Source of the DNA: a virus
Virus record (IMG/VR): IMGVR_UViG_3300027899_000068
Location: 1 to 24,761 of that record
Reading direction: 5' to 3' (one strand)
DNA length: 24,761 bases
Shown one piece after another: positions 7,873 through 24,761 of the stretch. The position numbers were made by a program, and so were the translations under genes. Numbering within the stretch: position 1 is the stretch's first letter; each line of letters begins with the position of its first letter. Under the pieces are notes generated by a model. It was given only the letters and a program-made list of their open reading frames with translations, made no database searches and was not told the DNA's origin.

Positions 7873-8442
7873 ATGATGCATACAACTTTAAACAAAATCA
7901 GACAACATAATCCCTGTGCCGATGGATGGTCTAAGTTATTAAAACACCTTGGCAAAACTGAAGCAGATGATAAACCGTTGAGTTTCTTGACTATTCTTGA
8001 GTCTAATGGTCCTGATGACGCATTGTGGTGCTGTAGATCAGCACCAGAATATGACAAGGAGTGGCGGTTATTTGCTGTCTGGTGTGGTCGTCAAGTGCAA
8101 CATTTAATGACAGATGAACGCAGTGTAACTGCTCTAGATGTTGCAGAGAAGTATGCTAACGGATTAGCGACAAAAGAAGAATTAGATGCTGCTAGTGATG
8201 CTGCTGATAATGCTGCTGATAATGCTGCTGATAATGCTGCTTATAATGCTGCTTATAGTGCTGCTTATAGTGCTGCGGAAGCTGCTGCGGAAGCTGCTTA
8301 TTATGCTGCTAGGGCTGCTGCTAGGGCTGTTGATAGGGTTGTTGATGTTGGTTTGTTCTATTGCCCTTATGTTCCATTGCGAATGGTTTGTGCGGTTGAT
8401 ATAAAAGAGCAATTTATTAAAGTTATTAATGATATACAATAG
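7873..8442 (+). CDS. Conserved protein with alanine-rich AAxx repeat domain
   Basis: 189 residues. Residues 1-105 match a conserved phage and bacterial module (LNKIRQHNPCADGWSKLLKHLG; FLTILESNGPDDALWC; VWCGRQVQHLMTDERS; ALDVAEKYANG). Residues about 106-153 are a run of four-residue AA-x-x units (AADN, AAYN, AAYS, AAEA, AARA), probably one long amphipathic helix. The C-terminus returns to ordinary sequence. In relatives the alanine repeat varies in length. Tandem ATGs (7873, 7876) follow promoter P4. Function is unknown; the non-repeat part may bind a partner. Confidence 0.83.
   Translation: MMHTTLNKIRQHNPCADGWSKLLKHLGKTEADDKPLSFLTILESNGPDDALWCCRSAPEYDKEWRLFAVWCGRQVQHLMTDERSVTALDVAEKYANGLATKEELDAASDAADNAADNAADNAAYNAAYSAAYSAAEAAAEAAYYAARAAARAVDRVVDVGLFYCPYVPLRMVCAVDIKEQFIKVINDIQ
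8188..8332 (+). repeat. 12-base GCTGCTNNNNNN coding microrepeat
   Basis: Twelve-base units beginning GCTGCT encode the AA-x-x repeat. GCTGCTGATAAT occurs three times without change at 8200-8235, and is followed by TAT-AAT, TAT-AGT and GCG-GAA variants, also in neighbouring copies. The pattern of identical adjacent copies indicates expansion by replication slippage or unequal recombination. The length stays a multiple of 12 bases, so the frame is safe. Confidence 0.9.
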
Positions 8443-10561: not shown

Positions 10562-11395
10562 ATGAAAAATACAAATATAAAAAAATTACGAATAGCGTAT
10601 TGCTCAGATTTACATATTGAAAGAGGAATATTAGAACTTGAAAATACAGAAAAGGCAGATGTTTTAATATTAGCCGGGGATATATTTGTTACATATGATT
10701 TAGAAGAACTCAATAAAAATAAAACTGCGGAATGGCTTTTGTATAGGTCAAATAAAATCCATAAGTTCATAACTGACTGTTGTAAAGAATTTCCACAAGT
10801 TATTATGGTATGTGGTAACCATGAAAGTTACAGTTCAGATATTATGAACACGTATAACAATATTACTTCATTTCTTAAATACAATAGTAACTTTCATTTA
10901 TTGGAAAATGAAGTATTAATTATTGATAATGTTGCATTTATTGGTGGTACTATGTGGACAGATATGAATGGAGAAGATTTAGAAACTATCCATAGTATTA
11001 GAAAAATGCTGAATGATTTTAGAATTATTAAAAAGTCTAACACTAGATTTACTCCTGAGGATGCTTTAGATATTTTTAAAGAAACTACAGATTATATTGA
11101 TTTAATGTCTACCATACATAGTGATAAAAATGTGATAGTAGTTACTCATCATTCTCCTTCATTTAAATCTACAGATCCTAGATTTATAAATGAAACTATT
11201 ATGAATGGTGGATTTTGTTCTAATCTCGAGCAGTTTATAAAAGATAGACCTAATATTAAAACTTGGATCCACGGTCATTTACATAATAAAAGTAATTATT
11301 ATGTAGGTACATGTAATGTATTATGTAATCCAAGAGGGTATATAGGATATGAAGAATGTGCCAATACTTTTAAATTAGAATATTTTGATATATGA
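10562..11395 (+). CDS. Calcineurin-like metallophosphoesterase
   Basis: 277 residues with the full set of metallophosphoesterase motifs: SDLH (D16, H18), LAGD (D40), CGNHE (N86, H87), THH (H196) and HGHLH (H237, H239). These residues hold two metal ions and cleave phosphoester bonds. Substrate cannot be told from sequence; phage members include 3',5'-nucleases, phosphatases and 2',3'-cyclic phosphodiesterases. The start ATG 10562 lacks an obvious ribosome site. The end overlaps the P-loop kinase-like gene by ATGA, so the two are likely to be co-translated. Confidence 0.85.
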   Translation: MKNTNIKKLRIAYCSDLHIERGILELENTEKADVLILAGDIFVTYDLEELNKNKTAEWLLYRSNKIHKFITDCCKEFPQVIMVCGNHESYSSDIMNTYNNITSFLKYNSNFHLLENEVLIIDNVAFIGGTMWTDMNGEDLETIHSIRKMLNDFRIIKKSNTRFTPEDALDIFKETTDYIDLMSTIHSDKNVIVVTHHSPSFKSTDPRFINETIMNGGFCSNLEQFIKDRPNIKTWIHGHLHNKSNYYVGTCNVLCNPRGYIGYEECANTFKLEYFDI

Positions 11396-11799
11396 AAATA
11401 TTAATTATGGGATTACCTGGATCAGGTAAAACGGCTCTTGCAAAGGCATTACAAGAAAAGTTAAATTGTGATTGGTTTAACGCTGATGCAATAAGAGAAC
11501 AGTTTGATGATTGGGATTTTAGTTTAGAAGGTAGAATTAGACAAAGTCGACGTATGCGAGATTTAGCTAATACTTGTTTTGGAGACGTTATTGTAGATTT
11601 TGTTGCACCACTTCAAGAAATGCGTAATATATTTAATCCTGACATCTTGATATGGGTAGATAGAATAGAAGAAAGTGTATATAAAGATACCAATCTTCTA
11701 TTCCAAATTCCGACTAATTATGATATAAAAATACCATTTGGATTATCTATTGATGAAGAAGTTGAATTATTCTTGGTTTATAAAAAACACTTGAGTTAA
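11392..11799 (+). CDS. Adenylylsulfate-kinase-like P-loop protein
   Basis: 135 residues. Walker A is GLPGSGKT at 7-14. FNADAIREQFDDWDFSLEGRIRQSRRMRDLA (about 29-59, read as short blocks) follows the APS-kinase pattern of a substrate-binding loop with D-R and an arginine pair, and VIVDFVAPLQEMR (about 66-78) matches the next strand. WVDRIEESVYKDTNLLF lies where APS kinase has its lid. It is shorter than typical CysC (about 200 residues), so it could be an APS kinase that makes PAPS or another small-molecule kinase. It overlaps the metallophosphoesterase gene by ATGA and runs 33 bases into the opposite oxygenase gene. Confidence 0.72.
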   Translation: MKILIMGLPGSGKTALAKALQEKLNCDWFNADAIREQFDDWDFSLEGRIRQSRRMRDLANTCFGDVIVDFVAPLQEMRNIFNPDILIWVDRIEESVYKDTNLLFQIPTNYDIKIPFGLSIDEEVELFLVYKKHLS

Positions 11800-12291
11800 T
11801 CTACTATTTTCAAGTGTATCTCCAAAATATTTTGTAGATTTATGAAATTCAGTTGCCTTATATAATACAAGTCTATTAAACACATTACCTACAATATCTC
11901 TTTCTACATGTGGATGACCTGTGTATATAGTAGTTCCAGCATCAATAGGTGCATCTGGAGTTAAATAAAGAATACCGGCAATTTGAACATTATTATCCAT
12001 GTGAATCCAACTATCTCCATCTGATTCTTTGGTTAACTGAAAACTGCTACTAATTGATAAGTTTTCAGTTAACCCAAAAGAAGATTGAACAAGATAAGAA
12101 ATTCTAGATAATACCATATTAGCATATCCCATATCTAAATCATTAACATTATTTGTTCTTAATCCTGGCCAGGTATTTTCACCTGAATTAATCTTGGTAA
12201 TTTCCTCCGCTGAATAAAACATTTGATCCAAAGCCCAAGTTCTAACAACGTTAGGATAAGGTAAAAAATCATCAACTATTATTAAATTCAT
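11767..12291 (-). CDS. 2OG-Fe(II) oxygenase-like protein
   Basis: 174 residues. The Fe(II) triad is visible as WIHMDNN (H97, D99) and TEFHKS (H150), with R164 in the following strand suited to bind 2-oxoglutarate. Between them lies the core strand GILYLTPDAP, typical of the DUF6445/prolyl-4-hydroxylase-like group found beside glycan genes in marine phages. Such enzymes hydroxylate proteins or small molecules using oxygen and 2-oxoglutarate. It is the last gene of the leftward block, overlapping the SGNH gene by 20 bases, and its end overlaps the convergent P-loop gene by 33 bases. Confidence 0.8.
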   Translation of the reverse strand: MNLIIVDDFLPYPNVVRTWALDQMFYSAEEITKINSGENTWPGLRTNNVNDLDMGYANMVLSRISYLVQSSFGLTENLSISSSFQLTKESDGDSWIHMDNNVQIAGILYLTPDAPIDAGTTIYTGHPHVERDIVGNVFNRLVLYKATEFHKSTKYFGDTLENSRLTQVFFINQE

Positions 12292-12985
12292 ATCCTAACT
12301 CTTTTATTAATAAATCTGCTACATTAATATGTTCTTCTTTGTTCCAGTATTCTTTATCAGTTTTTTTACCTTTAATGCCTCTGGAAGCATTTAATAAATT
12401 GGTTCCTCTTAAAATATATCTTTCTTCTTCTATAAAATGAGAGTCTTCACATTGATCGCACCATACATCAAATGCCAACCATTTGCAACCAGATTTATTT
12501 AATACCTGTTCACAAGAAGTAAACATTACTTTAAACATTTCTTGATACCATACACTAGAATTAAACGGTCCAAATGCTCCCCACATAAATTGCTTAGCAT
12601 ATTGACAGGTTGTAGAATCCATTAAATGATATGACATTCTTTTTGTTCTAATTCCACCAACATCTTCATTTAAATCTGTTATTCTATAATTAATATCAGG
12701 ATGATTAGATTCAATATCATAATCATCCGCAAGACCAAATTCAAATCGTGACGGAGCAGTCCAACCTATTAATACAATATCATCTTTTGTTAAAGGGATG
12801 GATTGCAATATTCTAGCAATCCTCCAGTTACTTGAGGCAGGAAGAGAATAATCTGTTAATGGCATGCCTAATTTTTGAGATAATACATTAGGCCAAATTA
12901 ATTCTTTTCTTTGCTCTTCATTTATATCAGCATCAATGAAAAAGTTCCAACCCCAAGTAAAGCTATCCCCAAAAGTGTATATCAT
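12272..12985 (-). CDS. SGNH/GDSL-type hydrolase-like protein
   Basis: 237 residues. The N-terminus is YTFGDSFTWGWN: GDS places the likely nucleophile at Ser8. A second block with SLPASSNWRIARIL carries the Asn expected later in SGNH proteins, and near the end EEHINVADLL (about residues 218-227) supplies a candidate catalytic His. Members are esterases or acyl-transfer enzymes; similar genes lie in phage and bacterial surface-polysaccharide clusters and remove or add acetyl groups. The start overlaps the TPR-glycosyltransferase stop as ATGA. The substrate is unknown. Confidence 0.72.
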   Translation of the reverse strand: MIYTFGDSFTWGWNFFIDADINEEQRKELIWPNVLSQKLGMPLTDYSLPASSNWRIARILQSIPLTKDDIVLIGWTAPSRFEFGLADDYDIESNHPDINYRITDLNEDVGGIRTKRMSYHLMDSTTCQYAKQFMWGAFGPFNSSVWYQEMFKVMFTSCEQVLNKSGCKWLAFDVWCDQCEDSHFIEEERYILRGTNLLNASRGIKGKKTDKEYWNKEEHINVADLLIKELGYEFNNS

Positions 12986-14310
12986 AAAATATCTTTTAGT
13001 TCTTTTAGAGGTTCATCCCATCTTCTTGGTTTTTCTTGTCTTAACAAAGTAACATTATCACCGTACCAAGGAGATTGTTTCGTTGAATGAGACCAAGTAT
13101 AATATGCAGAAATAGGAATAAAGATACAAGTTTTCTTACCCATTGCTGCAGCTCCGTGCGCAACTGATGTACATGTTGTAATAACTATATCCAAATTATT
13201 CATTATAGACAAAGTATCATCAAAGGATTCCATGTATTCATGCATTGGAATTAATCCTGGAAAATCAACCATTTCTTCCAATCCAACATCACGTTGTAAA
13301 CTATAAAACTCTGCATCTATATGTTTAACAGACTCATAAATCTCTTTTAATGGAACTGATCTATGTAAGTCATTGTCATAATCAGGATTACCTTGCCATC
13401 TAATACCAATTTTCTTTTTATCAGATTTCATCCATTCATATTTTGCATCATATACTTCTGAAGATTTAATGTATGGTCCATACCATAGATTTGTATAATC
13501 TAAACTTAAAGATGTAGGCATATTCATTGGATAAGTCCACAATAAATCTTCTTCTTGTGGGATATCTTTTTTACTGGTAATAGTTTTAAAACCATTACGG
13601 TTAAATATTTCTGCCATATCTTTTCTATCAGTCAGCCAAATTGGGTTCATTCCATAATCAGTAAGATACTTCATAAACCTTACATTGATTATCTCATCAC
13701 CAATTCCTGCTTCAGCAAACAAGATTATAGTCTTTCCAGGTTGAATTCCACCTTCCCAATATTTGAATGGAAGTTTTGCTTTTTGCCAATAATCTAACTT
13801 TTTACCTTCTTCTAGAAATAAATTTAATCCTTTTTGGAACTCATCTCTATACAAATAATATGTACCAAGATTAAACTTGATTTTAGTAACATATTCTTCA
13901 GATAAATTTTTAGCATTTAACAATACATCATGTAGAATTTCTTCAGCTTTATCTCTTTCATTCATTAGAAAATGTGAATAGGCCTTTTCTAATTTTGTAT
14001 CAACATCATCTGGAATTGATTTTAATGCTTGCTTAATGTATTTAAGCGCTAATTCTGGTTCATTAGCATGGTTATAAACATTAATCAAATTTGTACGTGC
14101 AGTCCATATTCTTTCATTAGTATATGAAGTTATTAATGCGCGTTCAGAACATACAATAGCTTTAGGATATTCCTTTTGTTTAAAATAGCATTTTGCTAAA
14201 TCATCATATTCAGTAAATTGCCAAGCATGTTTATGCATAGTGTCTAACAAGGAAATTGCTTGTTTCTTTTCACCATGACCTACAAGATAATTTACTAATT
14301 GCTCAAGCAT
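12982..14310 (-). CDS. TPR-repeat glycosyltransferase (GT9/GT41-like)
   Basis: 442 residues. About 1-185 are tetratricopeptide repeats (YDDLAKCYFKQKEYPKAI; LINVYNHANEPELALKYIKQAL; LGTYYLYRDEFQKGLNLF). Residues about 195-442 form a glycosyltransferase-B-like domain with FAEAGIGDEIINVRFMKYL at its start, KKIGIRWQGNP in the middle, and VITTCTSVAHGAAAMGKKT near the nucleotide-sugar site. TPR-plus-GT proteins of this type add sugars to proteins or glycans. The start overlaps the methyltransferase end by 8 bases and the stop overlaps the SGNH start by four. Confidence 0.8.
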   Translation of the reverse strand: MLEQLVNYLVGHGEKKQAISLLDTMHKHAWQFTEYDDLAKCYFKQKEYPKAIVCSERALITSYTNERIWTARTNLINVYNHANEPELALKYIKQALKSIPDDVDTKLEKAYSHFLMNERDKAEEILHDVLLNAKNLSEEYVTKIKFNLGTYYLYRDEFQKGLNLFLEEGKKLDYWQKAKLPFKYWEGGIQPGKTIILFAEAGIGDEIINVRFMKYLTDYGMNPIWLTDRKDMAEIFNRNGFKTITSKKDIPQEEDLLWTYPMNMPTSLSLDYTNLWYGPYIKSSEVYDAKYEWMKSDKKKIGIRWQGNPDYDNDLHRSVPLKEIYESVKHIDAEFYSLQRDVGLEEMVDFPGLIPMHEYMESFDDTLSIMNNLDIVITTCTSVAHGAAAMGKKTCIFIPISAYYTWSHSTKQSPWYGDNVTLLRQEKPRRWDEPLKELKDIL

Positions 14311-14851
14311 CTTTCATCACCATTAATTTCATATGAGTTTCGCCATATACATTATTAAAGTTTCTAGATACCTCAGTGATTTCTTCTTGAGTCATTTTAG
14401 CAAATCTTGGTTTCCAGAAATCATCAACTAGAAAATCAAATTCGATAATTTCAAAATCTACATCTAATGGTAAACCAAAACCTGAAGAACTATTCCATTG
14501 TTCTATATGCCATTTATTATATCTTTTACTAAACAATCTCATGTTATCAATAGTAACAAATCTTACATGAGAAGGATCTCCATAAAAAATTTCACTTCTA
14601 TGATGTGGAACTTGGATATCAATAATTGCCGTGTCTTTACAAACACGATAAATCTCTTTCATTAATTGAAAGAAGCCATCACCAATATGTTCTAAAATAT
14701 GATATGCACGTACTTCATCGACAGAATTATCTTCAAAGGGTAATGTATCTACACCCAATTTAACCAGATAATCTGGAGATGTTAAAGGATCTGCATCTAA
14801 ATTTAAAAATCCTTCATATCTTTTAAAACCGCCACCAATATTAATTTTCAT
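14303..14851 (-). CDS. Class I SAM-dependent methyltransferase
   Basis: 182 residues. Motif I is INIGGGFKRYEGFLNLDAD (about 4-21), DTLPFEDNSVDEVRAYHILEHI (about 35-56, in two blocks) is the typical type-11 pattern ending in LEH, followed by FFQLMKEIYRVCK and IDIQVPHHRSE. These are the marks of COG4627-like methyltransferases found beside glycosyltransferases. It probably methylates a sugar or small glycan acceptor. The start overlaps the YkgJ-like gene by ATGA and the end overlaps the TPR-GT gene by 8 bases. Confidence 0.8.
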   Translation of the reverse strand: MKINIGGGFKRYEGFLNLDADPLTSPDYLVKLGVDTLPFEDNSVDEVRAYHILEHIGDGFFQLMKEIYRVCKDTAIIDIQVPHHRSEIFYGDPSHVRFVTIDNMRLFSKRYNKWHIEQWNSSSGFGLPLDVDFEIIEFDFLVDDFWKPRFAKMTQEEITEVSRNFNNVYGETHMKLMVMKDA

Positions 14852-15216
14852 TTTTCGCCTCTTACTAATTTATAATATGTATTATTTTCTAATACCCAAG
14901 TTTCAATATAATCTAACACGTCTTTTCTTATAACAACCCCAAGTTCTATTATCTTTAAAAACTGTTTCTTATCGAGATCAAATTCGACACTTATCATAAC
15001 ATTGCTTTCTAATGGATGCATCCAATCAGGAAATAATCCTTGGCTCCATGCACATTGATAAGTAGAACAAACTTTAGGTCTCGTATTATATATAGAACAT
15101 TTTTTATCACACAGGAATTTACAAGGTGATCCGTTACCGAATACATTTCCGTATGCATTCGCTAACATCCAACCATCACAACATGCGGTACAAGTACCGC
15201 AGTCTTTAAAAATCAT
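14848..15216 (-). CDS. YkgJ-like Fe/Zn-cluster protein
   Basis: 122 residues. The N-terminal half carries a dense cysteine set: DCGTCTACCDGW (C6, C9, C12, C13), C32, C36, C40, and RPKVCSTYQC (C50, C55). C-x2-C-x2-CC followed by a C-x3-C-x3-C-x9-C spacing is the signature of the YkgJ (UPF0153/PF03692) family, thought to bind iron-sulfur or zinc. The C-terminal half is ordinary alpha/beta sequence. Its role is unknown; in glycan clusters it has been placed beside modification enzymes. Start and stop both overlap neighbours by ATGA. Confidence 0.8.
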   Translation of the reverse strand: MIFKDCGTCTACCDGWMLANAYGNVFGNGSPCKFLCDKKCSIYNTRPKVCSTYQCAWSQGLFPDWMHPLESNVMISVEFDLDKKQFLKIIELGVVIRKDVLDYIETWVLENNTYYKLVRGEK

Positions 15217-17984
15217 CTTGTAATTTTTTTATGTGAAAATATATCCAAAAATAAGTTAAATTCCTTTTCAGATGTGCCTAATATATTCATCTCAATATCT
15301 AACTCATTTTTGAATTGTCTGGCTTCTAATTTACCAAATGGTAAATCTATTACCTTATTGGTATACATTACCTCATAAAGACCTTGTATAAACCCTGCGC
15401 CATTTTTCAACAACCAAGTATCTTCTGTAGGTATTAATTTGTTATACCACAAATCAAATATCTCTTCTAACTTGGTTAAATCTCCAGTTTTCTGAACAAT
15501 TGCACACAATAAACCCATGTAATAATATTGCGCCATAGTAAAATCAGGTCGTTGTCTATAGTTCTTAACAATCAAATCAAAATAACGATCTTCAATTTTC
15601 TCATTTCTTACAGGTCTATTAATAGTTCCATAATGTGCAATAAACGATAGATCTTGGAATAAACATTTACTAATCCAACCTTCATCTGTCGTTGGATATT
15701 CATGAACCACTCCAGTAAAGTAGATACCATTATTCTTAAATAATCTATCATGGTATGGTGGATCATATGAATTAGGATCTCCATAGACTATACAATGTTT
15801 TTGACTTACCAATATACTATTGTAATAATCTGATGTAATAAACTGAAGTAATGATCTACCATTGATTAATTCTTCATCAGCATCCATCCAAAGTATGTAA
15901 TCACCAGTACATTTACTTAAACTATAATTTCTTGCAGCAGAAAAGTTACCTAACCCATCATCTTCTTCCCATTTATAATCATAAATCTTATCAGTGTATT
16001 TAGAAGCAATTCGTTTAGTATCGTCTGTACTACCAGTATCAACAATGATAATCTCATCAACTAACTTATAGATAGATTTTAAGCATCTAGATAAATTATC
16101 TTCTTCATTCTTAACAATCATACTAGCCGATATCTTTTTATAAGGACGAGTCTTTATAAATTTATCTTGATAGTTTGGTTTATGGAATGTAGGGATATTA
16201 TCCTTTTCAACAGTAAAGTAATACACGAAATGATATAATGGTTCGCCTCTTCTACCAGTTTGTTTTTGTTTAATCGCCTTAATCGTTAGATTAGTTTCCT
16301 TAAAGATTTCTTTAATATCGTTCATTTCAAAATGATGAAGATGTTCTATATGTTTGTTATCTTTATCTAAATTTTGCCAAGGACCTACGGGTGTAGTAAA
16401 AACAAAAGTACATTTATCTTTTACTAGAGTCATAAGTTTAGTTAGGAAAGAAACTGTATCTTCAACATGTTCTATCAACTCAGCTATAACAACAACATTT
16501 ACATCTAGATCATGCTTATCAATATTCAATACATTATCGCGAATAGTTTCAATTTGTTTGAACTCTTCTTTGTATGTAGATTCAAATTGATTTAATGCAT
16601 CTAAACAATAGTCGTATGCATATAATTTTTTGATATACATTGAATATTTTTCTAACAATGGAACTGATACACATCCATCATAAGAACCTATATCTAAAAC
16701 ACTAATATTACGAGAATGTAATGGTAAAATATGTTTCATTTCATCTAAGATGATATCGATTCTTTCACAGTTATTTCTACCACCATTAATATATGCATGG
16801 TCTTCAACATTATCAAAATTACAGATATCAATTAGATCTGAATATTTTTTATAACCCGATAAAGTTTTTGCTGCAACCAAATCTGAATAAATTTCAAGTT
16901 GATCTAGAATAGCTTCTTTATTATTAGAACTTCTTTCGATAAACATTTCATCGATTTTAGCATCCCAAGATTTAGCAACAGTTCCCCATTCGAAAGGTTG
17001 GATCAATTCTTTTGCTTTAAGGACTTCTTGTTCATAAGTATTACCTTTAAACTTTTCTAATAAGTTTAAGAAATTCTTATCATAATCCTTGTCTATCTTT
17101 ACTTTTGTATCTGATTTAACTGTTTCTGCTAAGGCATAATCATCTGTTGTGACGACAAGACAACCTGATGCTTGAGCTTCCATAGCATTAATACACGAAG
17201 TTTCTCCTATACAATCTGTTGGATAGATCATATAAGCACATTCATTAAGCAAATTATAATAATTTTTCTTTGATAAGGTGCCTTGATCAATTATATTTTT
17301 AGAAGATTTCAATAACTCAGTTGATCTTTTGAAGACCTCATAAAATGTATCTCCTTCCTGATAGTTCGCCATAGCATTTTGATAACCACAAATATGCAAT
17401 TTAGCATCAGGGTTTTCTGATACAATGTTTGGCCAAATATCTTCAAGTAATTTAACAAGACCCCGTTCATATCTTGCTGAATAAATGTAGTTATTTTTCT
17501 TCTTATCAAATGGTATTACTTCAGATACTAGAGATTTATCAAATCCATTTGATGTTATCCAGAACGCATCATCTTCTAACTCATAAGATTTTTGAAAGAA
17601 TTTCTTATGGTAATCTGATAAGCAAAATATTTTATCCGCTACTCCCATAGCAAATTTAGGATTATCGATATAGATATCGTGAGTCCATAAAATATTTAAT
17701 TTTGAATCTATAGGTCTTGCTAGGAATTCTGTATATCTAGAAACAATGCAAACATCTGTTTGGCATTTTTCATCATTATTAAACAATTCATAACTACGGT
17801 AATCTACATCTTCATAGGTTCCTGGTTTATCGCAATCACAGTACACGGTCACTTCATTGCCAAGTTTAGCAAGTTCACGGGCCATATAAATCATTGCTGA
17901 TTCAGAACCACCTAGAGATTTTTCGACTAAAGAGTTTCCATTAAATTGTAACCCTAGTGTTACAAATGATATAGTTTTTTTCAT
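15213..17984 (-). CDS. Trifunctional GT4 - methyltransferase - GT2 protein, 923 aa
   Basis: The start is ATG 17984 (MKKTISFVTLGL), one base after the sulfotransferase stop; a longer frame upstream runs inside that gene. Residues 1-345 are a GT4-type glycosyltransferase with LGGSESA near 24-30 and an E-x7-E site at E261/E269. Residues about 425-595 are a class I methyltransferase (LDIGSYDG at 430-437; ELIEHVED at 502-509). Residues about 615-800 are a GT2 domain (SASMIVKNEEDNLSRC; IIVDTGSTDDT; WMDADEEL with D701/D703); the last 120 are helical. One protein with two transferases and one methyltransferase probably assembles and caps a short glycan. The stop overlaps the YkgJ-like gene by ATGA. 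Confidence 0.85.
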   Translation of the reverse strand: MKKTISFVTLGLQFNGNSLVEKSLGGSESAMIYMARELAKLGNEVTVYCDCDKPGTYEDVDYRSYELFNNDEKCQTDVCIVSRYTEFLARPIDSKLNILWTHDIYIDNPKFAMGVADKIFCLSDYHKKFFQKSYELEDDAFWITSNGFDKSLVSEVIPFDKKKNNYIYSARYERGLVKLLEDIWPNIVSENPDAKLHICGYQNAMANYQEGDTFYEVFKRSTELLKSSKNIIDQGTLSKKNYYNLLNECAYMIYPTDCIGETSCINAMEAQASGCLVVTTDDYALAETVKSDTKVKIDKDYDKNFLNLLEKFKGNTYEQEVLKAKELIQPFEWGTVAKSWDAKIDEMFIERSSNNKEAILDQLEIYSDLVAAKTLSGYKKYSDLIDICNFDNVEDHAYINGGRNNCERIDIILDEMKHILPLHSRNISVLDIGSYDGCVSVPLLEKYSMYIKKLYAYDYCLDALNQFESTYKEEFKQIETIRDNVLNIDKHDLDVNVVVIAELIEHVEDTVSFLTKLMTLVKDKCTFVFTTPVGPWQNLDKDNKHIEHLHHFEMNDIKEIFKETNLTIKAIKQKQTGRRGEPLYHFVYYFTVEKDNIPTFHKPNYQDKFIKTRPYKKISASMIVKNEEDNLSRCLKSIYKLVDEIIIVDTGSTDDTKRIASKYTDKIYDYKWEEDDGLGNFSAARNYSLSKCTGDYILWMDADEELINGRSLLQFITSDYYNSILVSQKHCIVYGDPNSYDPPYHDRLFKNNGIYFTGVVHEYPTTDEGWISKCLFQDLSFIAHYGTINRPVRNEKIEDRYFDLIVKNYRQRPDFTMAQYYYMGLLCAIVQKTGDLTKLEEIFDLWYNKLIPTEDTWLLKNGAGFIQGLYEVMYTNKVIDLPFGKLEARQFKNELDIEMNILGTSEKEFNLFLDIFSHKKITR

Positions 17985-17985
17985 A

Positions 17986-18762
17986 TTAACGCCACACTTC
18001 CATTCCACTAAATTTATGAATAATATCGGGTGGTAAAATAGATTGTCTTTCAATCCACTCTACCTTTTTCCTTGTAGTATGCAGTCCTTTAACATTAACG
18101 TCATCATCAAATTCATCATAAGAAGATTCAACTTCATTAAAATTATGTGAATATAATGGTTGGTCAATAAAGTTATATATCGCTTTCATCATACCTTCAG
18201 GATTTTTGCATAGTTGTTCATATTCAACTAGCATAATCATATTCTTTTCAGCAGAAGTTATTGCTTGCTTTAAGGCAAGGTATGCGAATCCTACAGTAGA
18301 ACTTTCTTGCATCAGATAATCACAACGAGAATAGACTGTAGTTGCCCATTCATCAGGTATCATTAGATTTTTATCGTATGGATTTTTTCTGTATAGTTGT
18401 TCGAAAGAATCAAGAACCCAATTTAGATCTCGTACACATATAATTAATTTTGTATTGGGATACAGGTCTTTGATAAAAGGAGTTAGAAGACCCCAACCTC
18501 GATTTGTATCAAAGAAAACTTCTTTGGTAGGATCATCATAATAATTATCAAACACACCTTGGATTATCTTCTTTCTTTTTTCCGCAGGGCATTGATGTCG
18601 ATAACCTGACATTGCTGATGATTGTTCTATAATAGCTCTAGTAAATCTTGCAAGTGGTCCTGAAATACTTGCTTGAAATTTAGGATTTTGATTTAGGATT
18701 GTAGAAAGGAGGGTTGTCCCAGAACGAGGCAACCCTGTAATAAAATAATATTTTTTGTCCAT
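17986..18762 (-). CDS. PAPS-dependent sulfotransferase-like protein
   Basis: 258 residues. TGLPRSGTTLLSTIL (about 9-23) is the 5'-phosphosulfate loop and CVRDLNWVLDSF (about 109-120, R111 and S119) is the 3'-phosphate site, both typical of PAPS-dependent sulfotransferases. FFDTNRGWGLL lies in the substrate area. Such proteins move a sulfate group from PAPS onto a hydroxyl, often of a sugar or protein tyrosine. It is the first gene of the glycan module after the giant RCC1 protein, with a GAGAG ribosome site and a 51-base gap in front of it. The stop is one base before the trifunctional gene. A phage kinase-like gene at 11392 could supply PAPS. Confidence 0.8.
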   Translation of the reverse strand: MDKKYYFITGLPRSGTTLLSTILNQNPKFQASISGPLARFTRAIIEQSSAMSGYRHQCPAEKRKKIIQGVFDNYYDDPTKEVFFDTNRGWGLLTPFIKDLYPNTKLIICVRDLNWVLDSFEQLYRKNPYDKNLMIPDEWATTVYSRCDYLMQESSTVGFAYLALKQAITSAEKNMIMLVEYEQLCKNPEGMMKAIYNFIDQPLYSHNFNEVESSYDEFDDDVNVKGLHTTRKKVEWIERQSILPPDIIHKFSGMEVWR

Positions 18763-18813: not shown

Positions 18814-21800
18814 TTACATATCGTCTTTTACTGCCATTGTATGATAATTTCCACCTGCAACTTGTTTCCAATTAGTTCCGCCAGTAATGGTTTGGACTGG
18901 ACTAGATTTATCAGTAACTGTACTATCACCTAGTTGACCATAACCATTATAACCCCATGTCCATAGAGTTCCATTGGTCTTGATTGCCGTTGTATGATAA
19001 GCTCCGCCAGCAACTTGTTTCCAATTAGTTCCGCCAGTAATGGTTTGGACTGGACTAGATTTATCAGTAACTGTACTATCACCTAGTTGACCCTCACTAT
19101 TTCTACCCCAAGTCCATAATGTCCCATCGGTCTTGATTGCCGTAGTATGTAATTGTCCACATGCAACCTGACTCCAATTGGTACCACCTGCTATAGTTTG
19201 GACAGGACTAGATCTAGTAGTAAGTGTATTATCACCTAGTTGACCATTAACATTACGACCCCAAGTCCATAGGGTTCCATCGGTCTTTGTTGCCATAGTA
19301 TAATAACCTCCACCAGAGACTTGTTTCCAGTTGGTTCCACCTGTTATAGTTTGGACAGGACTAGATTTATCAGTAACTGTACTATCACCTAGTGCACCAA
19401 AAGCATTACTTCCCCAAGCCCATAGGGTGCCATCAGTCTTGATTGCCGTAGTATGATAACCTCCACCAGAGACTTGTTTCCAGTTGGTTCCACCTGTTAT
19501 AGTTTGAACTGGACTCCTTTTATCAGCAACGGTACTATCACCTAGTGCACCATTACTGTTATAACCCCAAGTCCATAAAGTTCCATCAGTCTTTATTGCC
19601 GTAGTATGATAAATTCCGCCAGAGACCTGTTTCCAGTTGGTTCCACCTGCAATTGTTTGGACTGGACTAGATCTCTGAACAACTGTACTATCACCTAGTT
19701 GACCATAACCATTCTGACCCCAAGCCCATAAGGTTCCATCAGTTTTTATTATAGCAGTATGACTATATCCACATGCAACCTGTTTCCAGTTGGTTCCGCC
19801 TGCTATGGTTTGGACTGGACTAGATTTATGAGTAAATGTACTATCACCTAGTTGACCATAATTATCTCTACCCCAGCCCCATAATCCACCTTCAGAAAAG
19901 ATATCTCTCGGTACCAATAAATCACCTAAATCAGAAGTATTAGAAATTACTTTTGTTACAATAGGAGCTGATGTACTAAAAATTGCAGCACTGGAATTAC
20001 CGAATCCTGTAGAAAGTTGGCTCCAATTATATCCGCCTGTAATGGTTTGGACTGGACTAGATTTATTAGTAAGTGTACTATCACCTAGTGTACCATTACT
20101 GTTATAACCCCAAGCCCATAGGGTGCCATCGGTCTTTGTTGCCATAGTATGATAACGGCCACCAGAGACTTGTTTCCAATTGGTTCCACCTGCAATGGTT
20201 TGGATTGGACTGGATTTAGCAACAATTGTATTATCACCTAGTTGACCATTACTGTTATAACCCCAGGTCCATAGGGTTCCATCGGTCTTGATTGCCGTAG
20301 TATGATTATATCCACATGCAACCTGTTTCCAGTTGGTTCCGCCTGTAATGGTTTGGACTGGACTAGATTTAGCAACAATTGTATTATCACTTAGTTGACC
20401 CCAATTATTATAACCCCAAGTCCATAAAGTTCCATCTGTCTTAATTGCCGTAGTATGATAATATCCACATGCAACCTGACTCCAATTAGTTCCGCCTGTT
20501 ATGGTTTGAACTGGACTAGATTTATTAGCAGTTGTATTATCACCTAGTTGACCATTACTGTTATAACCCCAAGTCCATAGGGTGCCATCAGTCTTTATTG
20601 CCGTAGTATGTCTATATCCACACGCAACCTGACTCCAATTGGTTCCGCCTGCTATAGTTTGGACTGGACTAGATCTCTGAGCAACTGTACTATCACCTAG
20701 TTGACCATTACTGTTATAACCCCAGGTCCATAAGGTCCCATCAGTCTTGATTGCCGTAGTATGACGAAATCCACCTGTAACCTGACTCCAATTGGTACCA
20801 CCTGTTATAGTTTGGACAGGACTAGATTTATCCGCATTATTTGGCAGTAATTGTTGACCATAATCATTTCTACCCCAAACTAATAAATTATCACTTGCAT
20901 CTATAGCATAAGATGCGGATTGTCCAATAGTTAAATATTTCCAATTGGTTCCACCTGCTACGGTTTGGACAGGGCTAGATTTAGTAGTCTGTGTACCATC
21001 ACCTAGTTGACCATTAATGTTATAACCCCAAGTCCATAGGGTTCCATCAGTCTTGATTGCCGTAGTATGTCTATATCCACCTGCAACCTGACTCCAGTTG
21101 GTTCCACCTGCTACGGTTTGGACAGGGCTAGATTTAGCAGTAATTGTACTATCACCTAGTGCACCATTAGGATTATAACCCCAAGTCCATAGGGTGCCAT
21201 CGGTCTTGATTGCAGTAGTATGCATATGTCCGCAAGCAACCTGACTCCAATTGGTTCCACCTGTTATGGTTTGGACAGGACTTGATCTATCTTCTAATGA
21301 ATTTGGTAATAACATCTGCCCGTTACTATTATCACCCCAAACTAATAAATTATCACTGGTGTCTATTGCATAAGATGCAGATGCATTAGTTGTTAAATAT
21401 TTCCAGTTAGTTCCGCCTGTTATAGTTTGGATTGGGCTAGATTTATTAGTAATTGTACTATCACCTAGTTGACCAAAAGTATTATGACCCCAAGTCCATA
21501 GGGAGCCATCGGTCTTGATTGCCATATTATGATAAGCTCCACCTGCAACCTGACTCCAATTGGTTCCACCTGCTATGGTTTGGATTGGACTAGATGTATT
21601 AGTACTTGTACCATCACTTAGTTCGCCATTAACATTACGACCCCAAGACCATAGGGTGCCATCAGTCTTGATTGCCGTAGTATGACCATATCCACCAGTA
21701 ACCTGTTTCCAGTTGGTTCCACCTGCAATTGTTTGGACTGGGCTAGATTTAGCAGTCTGTGTACCATCACCTAGTTGACCATTACTGTTATAACCCCAAG

Positions 21801-23049
21801 TCCATAATGTCCCATCAGTCTTGATTGCCGTAGTATGATAATATCCACATGCAACCTGACTCCAATTGGTTCCACCGGTAATGGTTTGGACTGGACTAGA
21901 TTTATGAGAAATTGTATTATCACCTAGTAAACCAAAATCATTTCGACCCCAAACCCATAGGGTTCCATCAGTTTTGATTGCTGTAGTATGATCAGATCCA
22001 CATGCAACCTGACTCCAGTTAGTTCCTCCTGCTATGGTTTGGATTGGACTAGATGTATTAGTAAATGTATTATCACCTAGTCCACCATATTGATTCCTAC
22101 CCCAAGTCCATAGGGTGCCATCGGTCTTGATTGCTGCAGTATAATAACCTCCACCTGCAACCTGTTTCCAATTGGTTCCGCCTGTTATGGTTTGGACTGG
22201 ACTAGATTTAGAAGTAACTGTATTATCGCTTAGTTGACCATAAGTATTACTTCCCCAAGTCCATAGGGTTCCATCGGTTTTTATAAGACCAAAATGTTTT
22301 GCTAAAGAAAATTGATTTAATAGATTTAAAGATGAACCTAAAGAAGATGTTATTACGCTTGTTGGAACATTTAATTGAGATACATAATACCAACTATTAC
22401 CTAGTTCACCATAAGTATTCTGACCCCAAGTCCATAGGGTTCCATCAGTCTTTATTGCAGTTGTATATCCATATCCAGCAGAAACTTGTTTCCAATTAGT
22501 TCCACCTGTTATGGTTTGGACTGGACTAGATTTATCAGCAACTGTATTATCACCTAGTTGACCATTCCAATTAGAACCCCAGGTCCATAGGGTGCCATCA
22601 GTCTTGATTGCTGTAGTATGTCTATATCCACACGCAACCTGACTCCAATTGGTTCCGCCTGTTATGGTTTGGACTGGACTAGATCTCTGAGCAACTGTAC
22701 TATCACCTAGTTGACCATAACCATTATAACCCCAGGTCCATAGGGTTCCATCGGTCTTGATTGCCGTAGTATGTTTATATCCACCTGCAACCTGACTCCA
22801 GTTGGTTCCACCTGCTATAGTTTGGACTGGACTAGATTTATTAGCAGTAATTGTACTATCACCAAGGTTACCATAAGTATTATTACCCCAAGCCCATAGG
22901 GTTCCATCAGTCTTGATTGCCGTAGTATGATAATATCCACATGCAATCTGTTTCCAATTGGTTCCACCTGTTATGGTTTGGACTGGACTAGATTTATCAG
23001 TAACTGTACTATCACCAAGTTGACCATAATTATCTCTACCCCAACCATA
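18814..23049 (-). repeat. Tandem repeat array with a period of about 153 bases
   Basis: The 27 coding units are highly alike at the DNA level (for example TGGACTGGACTAGAT and ACCATAGGGT-type words recur in most units). The array is long enough and similar enough for homologous recombination within itself and with the second array at 23816-24761. Copy number may differ between relatives. Confidence 0.9.
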
Positions 23050-23106
23050 TAGAAAATTGTCACTTGGTCCGTCTATGAAATTACTTTTAAATTGATTATC
23101 GGCCAT
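18814..23106 (-). CDS. Giant RCC1-repeat protein, 27 blades, 1430 aa
   Basis: After a 19-residue head, 27 RCC1-type units of about 51 residues follow, each reading W-WG-N--GQLGD, then SSPVQTI-GGTNWKQV, then H--AIKTDGTL. RCC1 proteins fold as seven-bladed propellers. Units 1-20 (residues 20-1045) are divided from units 21-27 (1076-1430) by a non-repeat linker of about 30 residues (genomic about 19882-19971) with LLVPRDIFSEGG; the last block is exactly seven units. Unit 5 (22264-22434) has lost most of the consensus. Units 11/12 and 14/15 carry a YAID-SDNLLVWG variant. No signal peptide or membrane helix. The likely role is in the virion, perhaps a fibre or receptor-binding protein. It overlaps the DUF4376 gene by 11 bases. 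Confidence 0.88.
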   Translation of the reverse strand: MADNQFKSNFIDGPSDNFLYGWGRDNYGQLGDSTVTDKSSPVQTITGGTNWKQIACGYYHTTAIKTDGTLWAWGNNTYGNLGDSTITANKSSPVQTIAGGTNWSQVAGGYKHTTAIKTDGTLWTWGYNGYGQLGDSTVAQRSSPVQTITGGTNWSQVACGYRHTTAIKTDGTLWTWGSNWNGQLGDNTVADKSSPVQTITGGTNWKQVSAGYGYTTAIKTDGTLWTWGQNTYGELGNSWYYVSQLNVPTSVITSSLGSSLNLLNQFSLAKHFGLIKTDGTLWTWGSNTYGQLSDNTVTSKSSPVQTITGGTNWKQVAGGGYYTAAIKTDGTLWTWGRNQYGGLGDNTFTNTSSPIQTIAGGTNWSQVACGSDHTTAIKTDGTLWVWGRNDFGLLGDNTISHKSSPVQTITGGTNWSQVACGYYHTTAIKTDGTLWTWGYNSNGQLGDGTQTAKSSPVQTIAGGTNWKQVTGGYGHTTAIKTDGTLWSWGRNVNGELSDGTSTNTSSPIQTIAGGTNWSQVAGGAYHNMAIKTDGSLWTWGHNTFGQLGDSTITNKSSPIQTITGGTNWKYLTTNASASYAIDTSDNLLVWGDNSNGQMLLPNSLEDRSSPVQTITGGTNWSQVACGHMHTTAIKTDGTLWTWGYNPNGALGDSTITAKSSPVQTVAGGTNWSQVAGGYRHTTAIKTDGTLWTWGYNINGQLGDGTQTTKSSPVQTVAGGTNWKYLTIGQSASYAIDASDNLLVWGRNDYGQQLLPNNADKSSPVQTITGGTNWSQVTGGFRHTTAIKTDGTLWTWGYNSNGQLGDSTVAQRSSPVQTIAGGTNWSQVACGYRHTTAIKTDGTLWTWGYNSNGQLGDNTTANKSSPVQTITGGTNWSQVACGYYHTTAIKTDGTLWTWGYNNWGQLSDNTIVAKSSPVQTITGGTNWKQVACGYNHTTAIKTDGTLWTWGYNSNGQLGDNTIVAKSSPIQTIAGGTNWKQVSGGRYHTMATKTDGTLWAWGYNSNGTLGDSTLTNKSSPVQTITGGYNWSQLSTGFGNSSAAIFSTSAPIVTKVISNTSDLGDLLVPRDIFSEGGLWGWGRDNYGQLGDSTFTHKSSPVQTIAGGTNWKQVACGYSHTAIIKTDGTLWAWGQNGYGQLGDSTVVQRSSPVQTIAGGTNWKQVSGGIYHTTAIKTDGTLWTWGYNSNGALGDSTVADKRSPVQTITGGTNWKQVSGGGYHTTAIKTDGTLWAWGSNAFGALGDSTVTDKSSPVQTITGGTNWKQVSGGGYYTMATKTDGTLWTWGRNVNGQLGDNTLTTRSSPVQTIAGGTNWSQVACGQLHTTAIKTDGTLWTWGRNSEGQLGDSTVTDKSSPVQTITGGTNWKQVAGGAYHTTAIKTNGTLWTWGYNGYGQLGDSTVTDKSSPVQTITGGTNWKQVAGGNYHTMAVKDDM

Positions 23107-23800
23107 ATGGTGTATTTAAATCCATTTGAAAAGGAATAGGTTCCCAAACAATATTATCTGAGACTAAACTGGCATTATTTAAATCTTCTAATGTTAACAT
23201 TGAATCTATTTCTATTATTTTATTTGCTTCCCAATCAAACGCTGATTGGACATGTAATATAATTGCTTGTACTATTGTGCCTAATTCAATATTAGATAAT
23301 GTTAAGAATTCAGTACCAAATTTCCAATTAACACCATCTGTTCCTAATTGATATGCTTGAAGATATAAACCTCTATCTTCTCTAGTAGTAAATAAGGATA
23401 TATCTTTATCTTGGACATTAACTGTAATACCCATTATTTCATATTTATATCTATTTGATGCAATAATTGATTTTAATTCTTGCTTAACAACATCAATTGG
23501 TTTATCTTGAACCGTATGATACATTTCTGCGGATGTTTCAGAAATATTATAAAAAGGACCAACTAGGTGATGAATTTTTGGATTATAATCTCCAGTAATA
23601 CCAATATCAGTAACAGGAATAATTCTTGCTATTTCATTAACAATAATTGCCTCATTTGTGTCATTTGATAGAGGAACTTTGAAATCAATTTCTAAGTCAT
23701 CTCTAAGACAACTTTGGAAATATGAAGGTCTCCAATTCATCGGACCAAGAAGAACATAATCTGTTCCATCGTGTAATTTTTCTATAATTAAATATGCCAT
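23096..23800 (-). CDS. DUF4376-type phage tail protein, 234 aa
   Basis: 234 residues. About 103-202 fit the DUF4376 pattern found at the C-terminus of many tail-fibre and tail-assembly proteins: an ITVNVQDKDISLFTTREDRG segment, LQAYQLGTDGVNWKF, then FLTLSNIELGTIVQAI and a helix HVQSAFDWEANKII. The first 100 residues look like a separate strand-rich domain (LLGPMNWRPSYFQ; EIDFKVPL). It lies between two RCC1-repeat genes, 12 bases after the first ends and overlapping the second by 11, which ties it to the same tail or fibre structure. AGGTATATAA precedes the ATG. Confidence 0.75.
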   Translation of the reverse strand: MAYLIIEKLHDGTDYVLLGPMNWRPSYFQSCLRDDLEIDFKVPLSNDTNEAIIVNEIARIIPVTDIGITGDYNPKIHHLVGPFYNISETSAEMYHTVQDKPIDVVKQELKSIIASNRYKYEIMGITVNVQDKDISLFTTREDRGLYLQAYQLGTDGVNWKFGTEFLTLSNIELGTIVQAIILHVQSAFDWEANKIIEIDSMLTLEDLNNASLVSDNIVWEPIPFQMDLNTPYGR

Positions 23801-23812
23801 TTTATATACCTG

Positions 23813-24761
23813 TTATATGTCTGAATATTGTGTTGCCATTGTATGTTGATATCCAGCAGTAACCTGTTTCCAATTGGTTCCGCCTGTTATAGTTTGGACT
23901 GGACTAGATTTATTAGTAAGTGTACTATCTCCTAGTGCACCATATTGATTCCTACCCCAAGTCCATAGGGTGCCATCAGTCTTTATTGCCGTAGTATGTC
24001 TATATCCACACGCAACCTGACTCCAATTGGTTCCGCCTGCTATAGTTTGGACTGGACTAGATCTAGTAATAAGTGTATTATCACCTAGTTGACCGTATAA
24101 ATTATAACCCCAGGTCCACATGGTTCCATCAGTCTTGATTGCCGTAGTATGATCAGATCCACATGCAACCTGTTTCCAATTAGTTCCGCCTGTTATAGTT
24201 TGGACTGGACTAGATTTATCAGCAGTTGTATTATTACCTAGTTGACCATATAAATTCCAACCCCAGGTCCACATGGTTCCATCGGTCTTGATTGCCGTAG
24301 TATGTCTATATCCACCTGCAACCTTACTCCAGTTGGTTCCACCTGTTATGGTTTGGACTGGACTAGATTTATTAGTACTTGTACTATCACCTAGTTGACC
24401 ATAACCATTACTTCCCCAAGCCCATAAGGTTCCATCAGTCTTGATTGCATTAGTATGTCTATATCCACATGCAACCTGTTTCCAGTTAGTTCCGCCTGCT
24501 ATAGTTTGGACTGGACTAGATTTATTTTCTGCAACTGAGGGAAGTAACATCTGTCCAAAATTATTTCTACCCCAAACTAATAAATTGTCACTGGCGTCTA
24601 TTGCATAAGATGCAAATTGATTAGTAGTTAAATATTTCCAATTGGTTCCGCCTGTTATGGTTTGGACAGGACTAGATTTATTAACAATTGTACTATCTCC
24701 AAGTGCACCAAAAAAATTATAACCCCAAGACCATAGAGTTCCATCAGTCTTGATTGCCGTA
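23813..24761 (-). CDS. RCC1-repeat protein, N-terminus outside the window
   Basis: The frame is open from the window edge (24761) to TAA at 23813-23815; an internal ATG at 24550 lies in the middle of a repeat and is not the start. At least six full units are present plus a partial first one, with the same consensus as the giant protein, including one YAID-SDNLLVWG variant followed by a QMLLPS unit. The protein ends MATQYSDI. It is a paralogue of the 1430-residue protein and probably part of the same structure. Size and number of blades cannot be told. Confidence 0.85.
   Translation of the reverse strand, partial: TAIKTDGTLWSWGYNFFGALGDSTIVNKSSPVQTITGGTNWKYLTTNQFASYAIDASDNLLVWGRNNFGQMLLPSVAENKSSPVQTIAGGTNWKQVACGYRHTNAIKTDGTLWAWGSNGYGQLGDSTSTNKSSPVQTITGGTNWSKVAGGYRHTTAIKTDGTMWTWGWNLYGQLGNNTTADKSSPVQTITGGTNWKQVACGSDHTTAIKTDGTMWTWGYNLYGQLGDNTLITRSSPVQTIAGGTNWSQVACGYRHTTAIKTDGTLWTWGRNQYGALGDSTLTNKSSPVQTITGGTNWKQVTAGYQHTMATQYSDI

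Follow-up and report, generated by a model that had tools for sequence, protein, structure and literature searches.

The DNA analyzed here, referred to as the window, is a 24,761-base viral fragment from IMG/VR (record IMGVR_UViG_3300027899_000068). Downstream of RCC1-repeat and tail-fibre-like genes it carries a minus-strand operon of seven genes (18762-11767), which begins with a gene for a sulfotransferase (ST) of the type using 3'-phosphoadenosine 5'-phosphosulfate (PAPS). Facing this operon on the plus strand is a short gene for a protein resembling adenosine 5'-phosphosulfate (APS) kinase, here named KIN (Table 1). An original prediction had proposed that these genes together build a methylated and sulfated glycan, with the kinase providing PAPS. 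All genes it named were found where it had placed them, and its placing of the kinase gene on the strand opposite to the operon was confirmed; the gene is coupled there to a metallophosphoesterase gene by a 4-bp overlap (ATGA at 11392), and its 3' end overlaps that of the DUF6445 gene tail to tail by 33 bp. The proposed list of operon genes was also correct, but it had missed the CxxCxxCC-type gene. Neighboring operon genes, which had been described as all linked by overlaps, indeed overlap by 4-20 bp, except that the ST and GT4 genes are separated by a 1-bp gap.

Table 1. Genes of the sulfotransferase operon, the facing kinase unit and the tail-fibre-like region in the window
Feature	Position	Strand	Basis
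ST, PAPS-type sulfotransferase, first operon gene	17986..18762	-	PF13469, 69.6 bits (cut-off 27); PF00685, 51 bits (cut-off 22)
GT4-methyltransferase-GT2 fusion, 923 amino acids, ATG at 17984	15213..17984	-	PF00534 Glycos_transf_1, PF13489 Methyltransf_23 and PF00535 Glycos_transf_2 in one chain
CxxCxxCC-type protein, putatively metal-chelating	14848..15216	-	PF03692, 16.9 bits, below cut-off; phrog_9155, 4e-22
SAM-dependent methyltransferase	14303..14851	-	PF08241 Methyltransf_11, 26.7 bits, above cut-off; phrog_6636
TPR protein with putative GT-B-like C-terminal half	12982..14310	-	TPR profiles; glycosyltransferase half by resemblance only
SGNH/GDSL hydrolase-like protein	12272..12985	-	PF00657, 14.7 bits, below cut-off of 23.6; GDSFTWG motif by eye
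DUF6445 protein, probably of 2-oxoglutarate (2OG)-Fe(II) oxygenase fold	11767..12291	-	PF20043, 26.4 bits (cut-off 24); phrog_1644
KIN, short lidless APS-kinase-like kinase, 135 amino acids	11392..11799	+	PF01583, 29.5 bits; phrog_10255, viral 'cysC' type
Metallophosphoesterase	10562..11395	+	PF00149, 50.1 bits; phrog_1649
RCC1-repeat protein, 1430 amino acids, upstream of ST; possible acceptor or adhesin	18814..23106	-	repeat read directly
DUF4376 tail-fibre-like protein	23096..23800	-	PF14301, 28.8 bits; phrog_10508 'tail fiber protein', 2.6e-11

The APS-kinase-like character of KIN was supported by profile, fold and APS-site residues. Its score on the Pfam family APS_kinase exceeds the gathering cut-off of 21.1 bits, the match covering residues 3-80 only; a single-sequence search was ambiguous, with AAA_18 and APS_kinase scoring alike. 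Members of the same KIN clade, which retain the DLGFS form, reach 61 bits on APS_kinase (61.6 bits for locus L088). A profile built from an alignment of 43 relatives had APS kinases as its top PDB matches (2yvu, 2e-11; the Penicillium enzyme, 1e-10; PAPSS1, 1e-9), and the nearest other small-molecule kinases, nicotinamide riboside kinase NRK1 and shikimate kinase, followed at about 4e-4. The AlphaFold (AF2) model of KIN (pLDDT 96.7) matched APS kinases best in both Foldseek and VIA: all 135/135 residues aligned with 7yq0 (Z 19.1, about 1.7-1.9 Å), the best 30 VIA matches (Z from 19.1 down to 16.2) consisted solely of APS kinases and domains resembling them, and the next class, gluconate kinase, reached Z 15.5. 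Thus, the P-loop protein did not prove to belong to another kinase class. Polynucleotide kinase, zeta-toxin, shikimate or gluconate kinase and nicotinamide riboside kinase (NRK) were each considered and rejected, since APS kinase gave the better match in profile as well as in fold.

Residues R35, F43 and R48 of KIN are invariant in 43 sequences and align with the residues R66, F75 and R80 that contact APS in the Penicillium enzyme. With CysC proteins (PF01583/TIGR00455; kinase domain of PAPSS1), KIN shares the fold, the P-loop, the DxxR and FSxxxR motifs, a segment F-x-x-x-x-x-x-Y/F-x-x-P and the linkage to sulfotransferases, as in nod clusters. It differs from them by being about 40 residues shorter, by an invariant Gln51 where the APS-contact Asn83 aligns, and by the absence of the KGLYKKAR lid; compared to the NodQ kinase domain, about 20 residues including the lid are missing. 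Furthermore, it scored 26 bits on the curated TIGR00455 with a cut-off of 138.7, so that the profile search for CysC succeeded with PF01583 but fell far short with TIGR00455, and KIN is for this reason not a canonical CysC. It is a lidless branch, too divergent to be filed under that name. By profile and model KIN is nevertheless a kinase of the APS-kinase kind, and it most likely acts like one, phosphorylating APS to PAPS.

Both PAPS-binding motifs are intact in ST, namely the 5'-phosphosulfate-binding motif GLPRSGTT and the 3'-phosphate-binding motif R111-x7-S119, and residues G10, L11, P12, R13, G15, T17, R111 and S119 are invariant in 13 relatives. Together with two family profiles above cut-off, this bears out the predicted PAPS-dependent sulfotransferase. 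The closest solved relatives are tyrosylprotein sulfotransferases; profile matches in the PDB comprise tyrosylprotein and other sulfotransferases.

To analyze linkage of the two genes, 2.9 million viral contigs were scanned twice, once with KIN as anchor and once with ST, and flanks of 10 kb were considered. KIN was located within 10 kb of ST in 48/84 viral ST-anchored loci, and both genes lay on the same strand in 47/48 pairs; KIN overlapped the end of ST in 26 pairs, in 19 by exactly 4 bp. When ST proteins were clustered at 70% identity, KIN was found in 12/23 clusters. Neither KIN, ST nor the nucleotidyltransferase (NT) described below was detected in 62 control loci (0.99 Mb) anchored on the band-7 protein of the window. 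A whole-contig search revealed a KIN match in 33/50 ST records, in several only in a degenerate form. Two loci (L003, L005) have the operon in common with the window up to the TPR gene, which is then followed by KIN on the same strand, and in L008 KIN comes directly after ST. Hence, co-occurrence in relatives is far above control, and the suggested co-operation of KIN and ST therefore reaches beyond the window. Mapped on a KIN tree, linkage to ST requires no fewer than 9 changes along supported branches (15 by parsimony, 31 with shuffled labels); association with ST was therefore gained or lost repeatedly. KIN of the window groups with L011 in a clade of 95/90 support, 9/11 members of which are ST-linked.

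Four loci (L008, L128, L129, L131) encode KIN fused to DUF2061, and ST is present in all four. DUF2061 genes were also found near CysD and CysN(C) homologues in 5/6 plasmid loci, including those of Microvirga and Gemmatirosa, and the nod cluster of Mesorhizobium shows the gene order sulfotransferase-DUF2061-cysD-cysN; two Mesorhizobium loci were counted as one origin because they are nearly identical. The fusions thus point to sulfate activation. We found no paper giving DUF2061 a role in this process.

Many marine loci encode an HxGH nucleotidyltransferase, NT (115-135 amino acids), either as a fusion with KIN or in the gene immediately after it. KIN relatives are also encoded chromosomally in SAR86, SAR11 and further marine Alphaproteobacteria, where KIN is adjacent to or fused with NT in 70/80 SAR86, SAR11 and related loci; profile-confirmed sulfotransferases adjoin KIN in L171, L195, L229 and L239. 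PF13469 sulfotransferases were present in 26/38 KIN-bearing genomes of these groups, CysD in none, Sat in 2, and a canonical APS kinase above cut-off in none. These genomes are partial, so that single absences mean little, yet the absence of CysD from all 38 is telling and fits Pelagibacter, which has been reported to be devoid of cysDNCHIJ and sat (PMC5069961). A conserved protein of 367-369 amino acids, methyltransferase-like by eye and without a Pfam match (L231), is encoded directly before KIN-NT with a 1-bp overlap in several SAR86 loci (L177, L193, L231).

H19, G21 and H22 of the HxGH core of NT as well as S115, T117, I119 and R120 (ISxTxIR) are invariant in 51 sequences. An NT profile came nearest to archaeal nicotinamide mononucleotide (NMN) adenylyltransferases (NMNATs) in the PDB (1f9a, 2.6e-8), and the fold resembles NMNAT and phosphopantetheine adenylyltransferase (PPAT) equally (Z 10.9); ATP sulfurylase was not among the fold matches listed, which does not exclude a likeness. 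NT scored 18-32 bits on curated NCBIfam families of the NMNAT type, below their cut-offs of 127-449. A resemblance of the NT segment GRxVGY to the GRDHAG loop of ATP sulfurylase is not claimed, as the spacing differs. NT may make APS. It is possible, although we hold this as a tentative proposal short of even odds, that KIN-NT is a compact PAPS synthase consisting of a lidless APS kinase and a new, NMNAT-like family of ATP sulfurylases, which would serve sulfation of surface polymers in SAR86, SAR11 and related bacteria, and that phages carry the pair or, like that of the window, its kinase half for sulfation of tail fibres or glycans of their own. In the open-access literature searched, we found no description of such a PAPS synthase from a phage or from SAR11/SAR86.

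A kinase paired with a nucleotidyltransferase could also activate another metabolite and be present in glycan operons to feed the glycosyltransferases rather than ST, for example by making a nucleotide sugar through phosphorylation and transfer of a nucleoside monophosphate, or by NAD salvage with a riboside kinase and an NMN adenylyltransferase. The closeness of NT to NMNATs, the occurrence of KIN-NT in phages without ST and the missing lid of KIN are consistent with such a function. NAD salvage is nevertheless only a rival because KIN is unlike NRK, though NT is NMNAT-like. Profile and fold of KIN single out APS kinases and the APS-site residues are kept, a sulfotransferase gene adjoins KIN again and again, in many cases overlapping it by 4 bp, and the DUF2061 fusions point in the same direction; moreover, several ST-linked KIN genes have no NT in their locus. 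We consider activation of another metabolite unlikely, though a serious rival.

Viral cysC genes have been assigned to assimilatory sulfate reduction as auxiliary metabolic genes (PMC10914622, PMC9529941); both cysC and cysH were reported, from freshwater and hadal phages, and interpreted in this way. Accepted for KIN, this interpretation would mean that PAPS is reduced for cysteine synthesis and that ST is an unrelated neighbor. The viral CysC proteins of 109-135 residues modelled on APS kinase (PMC9529941) are KIN-sized and probably belong to the same family, being likened here by size and model, not by sequence. However, KIN tracks sulfotransferases and not PAPS reductase: a PF01507 PAPS reductase was found in 0/32 KIN records, many of which are fragments, and the profile matched in 14/14 genomes used as positive control. 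This absence therefore counts against a role in assimilation, as does the lack of CysD in KIN-bearing SAR11 and SAR86 genomes. We regard an assimilatory function as very improbable.

The reading we prefer, with a probability of about 0.62, is that the window carries a phage sulfation module next to the tail-fibre region, in which a glycan is built and trimmed and then sulfated by ST, with KIN supplying PAPS. The host would provide APS for this phage, and KIN would convert it to PAPS by phosphorylation, so that the supply of the donor is maintained during infection. Building and trimming of the glycan would fall to the glycosyltransferase and methyltransferase proteins, and ST would transfer sulfate from PAPS to this glycan or to a protein bearing it, such as a tail protein. 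In marine relatives, NT beside or fused to KIN may provide the APS. Observed are the gene families, the fold of KIN, its APS-site residues, the conserved linkage to ST and the pairing with NT; all that follows, from the reaction catalyzed by KIN to its service to ST in this particular phage, is inferred.

A number of results weigh against this reading, in addition to the divergence of KIN from CysC described above. Although co-operation of KIN and ST is suggested by their linkage in relatives, KIN of the window lies outside the ST operon, on the other strand and coupled to the metallophosphoesterase gene, and a search of the window for an NT gene found none. KIN is missing from the 27-136 kb contigs of L002, L006 and L007, whose operons are most closely related to that of the window, and ST from the 33-41 kb contigs of L011, L012 and L014, whose KINs are closest. 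The strand and coupling of KIN and these two absences agree with an explanation in which the ST operon works independently with host PAPS and KIN belongs to the rightward phosphoesterase unit, its position being incidental. The other KINs of its supported clade are mostly ST-linked, though, and L003 and L005 combine the shared operon part with KIN on one strand; we judge an incidental position unlikely. The metallophosphoesterase as scan anchor returned 3 loci only, too few for testing its link with KIN, and DUF4376 as anchor yielded 1 locus. Furthermore, 17/50 ST contigs contain no KIN match of any kind, and many phages with KIN or KIN-NT, including the complete Stenotrophomonas phages DLP6 (L092) and Bhz60 (L091), have no PF13469 or PF00685 match. 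An additional Sulfotransfer_1 search of 32 KIN records without ST gave two hits above cut-off, one being the L050 gene already matched by PF13469 and the other marginal (22.7 bits), and none in DLP6, Bhz60 or L058; since KIN-NT thus occurs in phages without a recognizable sulfotransferase, the pair might also fulfil another function or work for enzymes of the host. With respect to NT, its profile matched NMNATs and no ATP sulfurylase in the PDB at E ≤ 1, and its association with ST in 147 genomes of one SAR11 family (43/79 versus 20/68, p 0.002) is modest, the p value being uncorrected for phylogeny or completeness.

In DLP6, a phosphatase gene directly precedes KIN-NT and an Fe(II) oxygenase gene is also adjacent; in Bhz60, the neighbor is a gene with a NADAR domain. 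Removal of 3'-phosphoadenosine 5'-phosphate, the by-product of the sulfotransferase, by the metallophosphoesterase of the window or the phosphatase of DLP6 is speculation only. Several phages encode, beside ST, a protein of 300-330 amino acids that bears an additional, degenerate KIN domain C-terminally (L102:10756-11718, L105:1512-2495, L107:13896-14819; also L112, L113, L116, L125, L126). The P-loop of this domain is lost (e.g., GLPGSSRS, GKPGSSRK), and the unrelated N-terminal domain is 2OG-oxygenase-like by eye and has no Pfam match. In L102, L105 and L126 this protein precedes an intact KIN-NT; it may be a pseudokinase that regulates the active enzyme or acts as its scaffold.

As to the acceptor, ST is fused to proteins of the TPR-glycosyltransferase type in L037, L059 and L088, which favors a glycan or glycoprotein; a protein is still possible because the nearest solved relatives of ST are tyrosylprotein sulfotransferases. 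RCC1-like repeats were found near ST in 20/84 ST loci compared to 1/62 control loci, and RCC1-like genes in 10/22 KIN loci with ST compared to 1/58 without. On these counts decoration of a tail fibre or adhesin is a fair guess and no more, and so is the choice of the RCC1 proteins as acceptor. In the window, very long, near-perfect RCC1-repeat proteins (18814-23106 and 23813-24760) flank the DUF4376 gene.

The remaining operon genes agreed with the original prediction to different degrees. All three domains of the glycosyltransferase-methyltransferase fusion were recovered in a single chain, and the separate methyltransferase matched its family above cut-off. Three further assignments were based more on motifs than on profiles: the presumed second glycosyltransferase has a TPR part recognized by profile, but its other half matches no glycosyltransferase family; the SGNH hydrolase assignment is weak; and the 2OG oxygenase is plausible from an HxD...H...R pattern (HMD...H) seen by eye, but the only family match is DUF6445 and no 2OG profile was matched. 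The overlooked CxxCxxCC-type gene is also present in the ST relatives L002-L010. Elsewhere in the window, an open reading frame at 7873-8442 contains an alanine-rich repeat (AADNAADNAAYNAAYSAAYSAAEAAAEAAYYAAR), with long artefactual reading frames in two other frames (8186-8404 and 8182-8439).

Similar arrangements are known from other systems. In human PAPSS1/2, as in L144 and others, a single chain unites a kinase with an HxGH nucleotidyltransferase behind it; they differ in that NT comprises 115-135 amino acids, is NMNAT/PPAT-like and has no ATP-sulfurylase match, and the window has no NT. Rhizobial NodH/NodPQ likewise combine a sulfotransferase, sulfate-activating genes and DUF2061 in one cluster, but NodPQ consists of CysD and CysNC, whereas in the phages KIN, alone or together with NT, takes this place. 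Phage sulfotransferases have been described and their role called unclear (PMC10580990). Among aquatic tailed phages, cyanophages S-SKS1 and S-SRM01 also encode sulfotransferases (26-33% identity), the one of S-SRM01 being located near tail-fibre, TPR and glycosyltransferase genes; no KIN match was obtained in these records at 1e-5. Judged from the open-access literature, the linkage of ST and KIN, a kinase form without lid, and the KIN-NT pair with its occurrence on SAR86 and SAR11 chromosomes appear to be new.

The ST-KIN linkage joins viral cysC genes and phage sulfotransferases; the main texts of the two studies on viral cysC (PMC9529941, PMC10914622) do not mention sulfotransferases. Since relatives of the window place ST and KIN in one operon, viral kinases ascribed to sulfur nutrition may instead serve sulfate decoration. 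Kinases of the KIN type may supply the sulfate donor for decoration of virions or cell surfaces, and studies on viral sulfur cycling would then read differently. If KIN-NT is indeed a PAPS synthase, it would explain how sulfotransferases are supplied in SAR11, SAR86 and related bacteria without known sulfate-activation enzymes.

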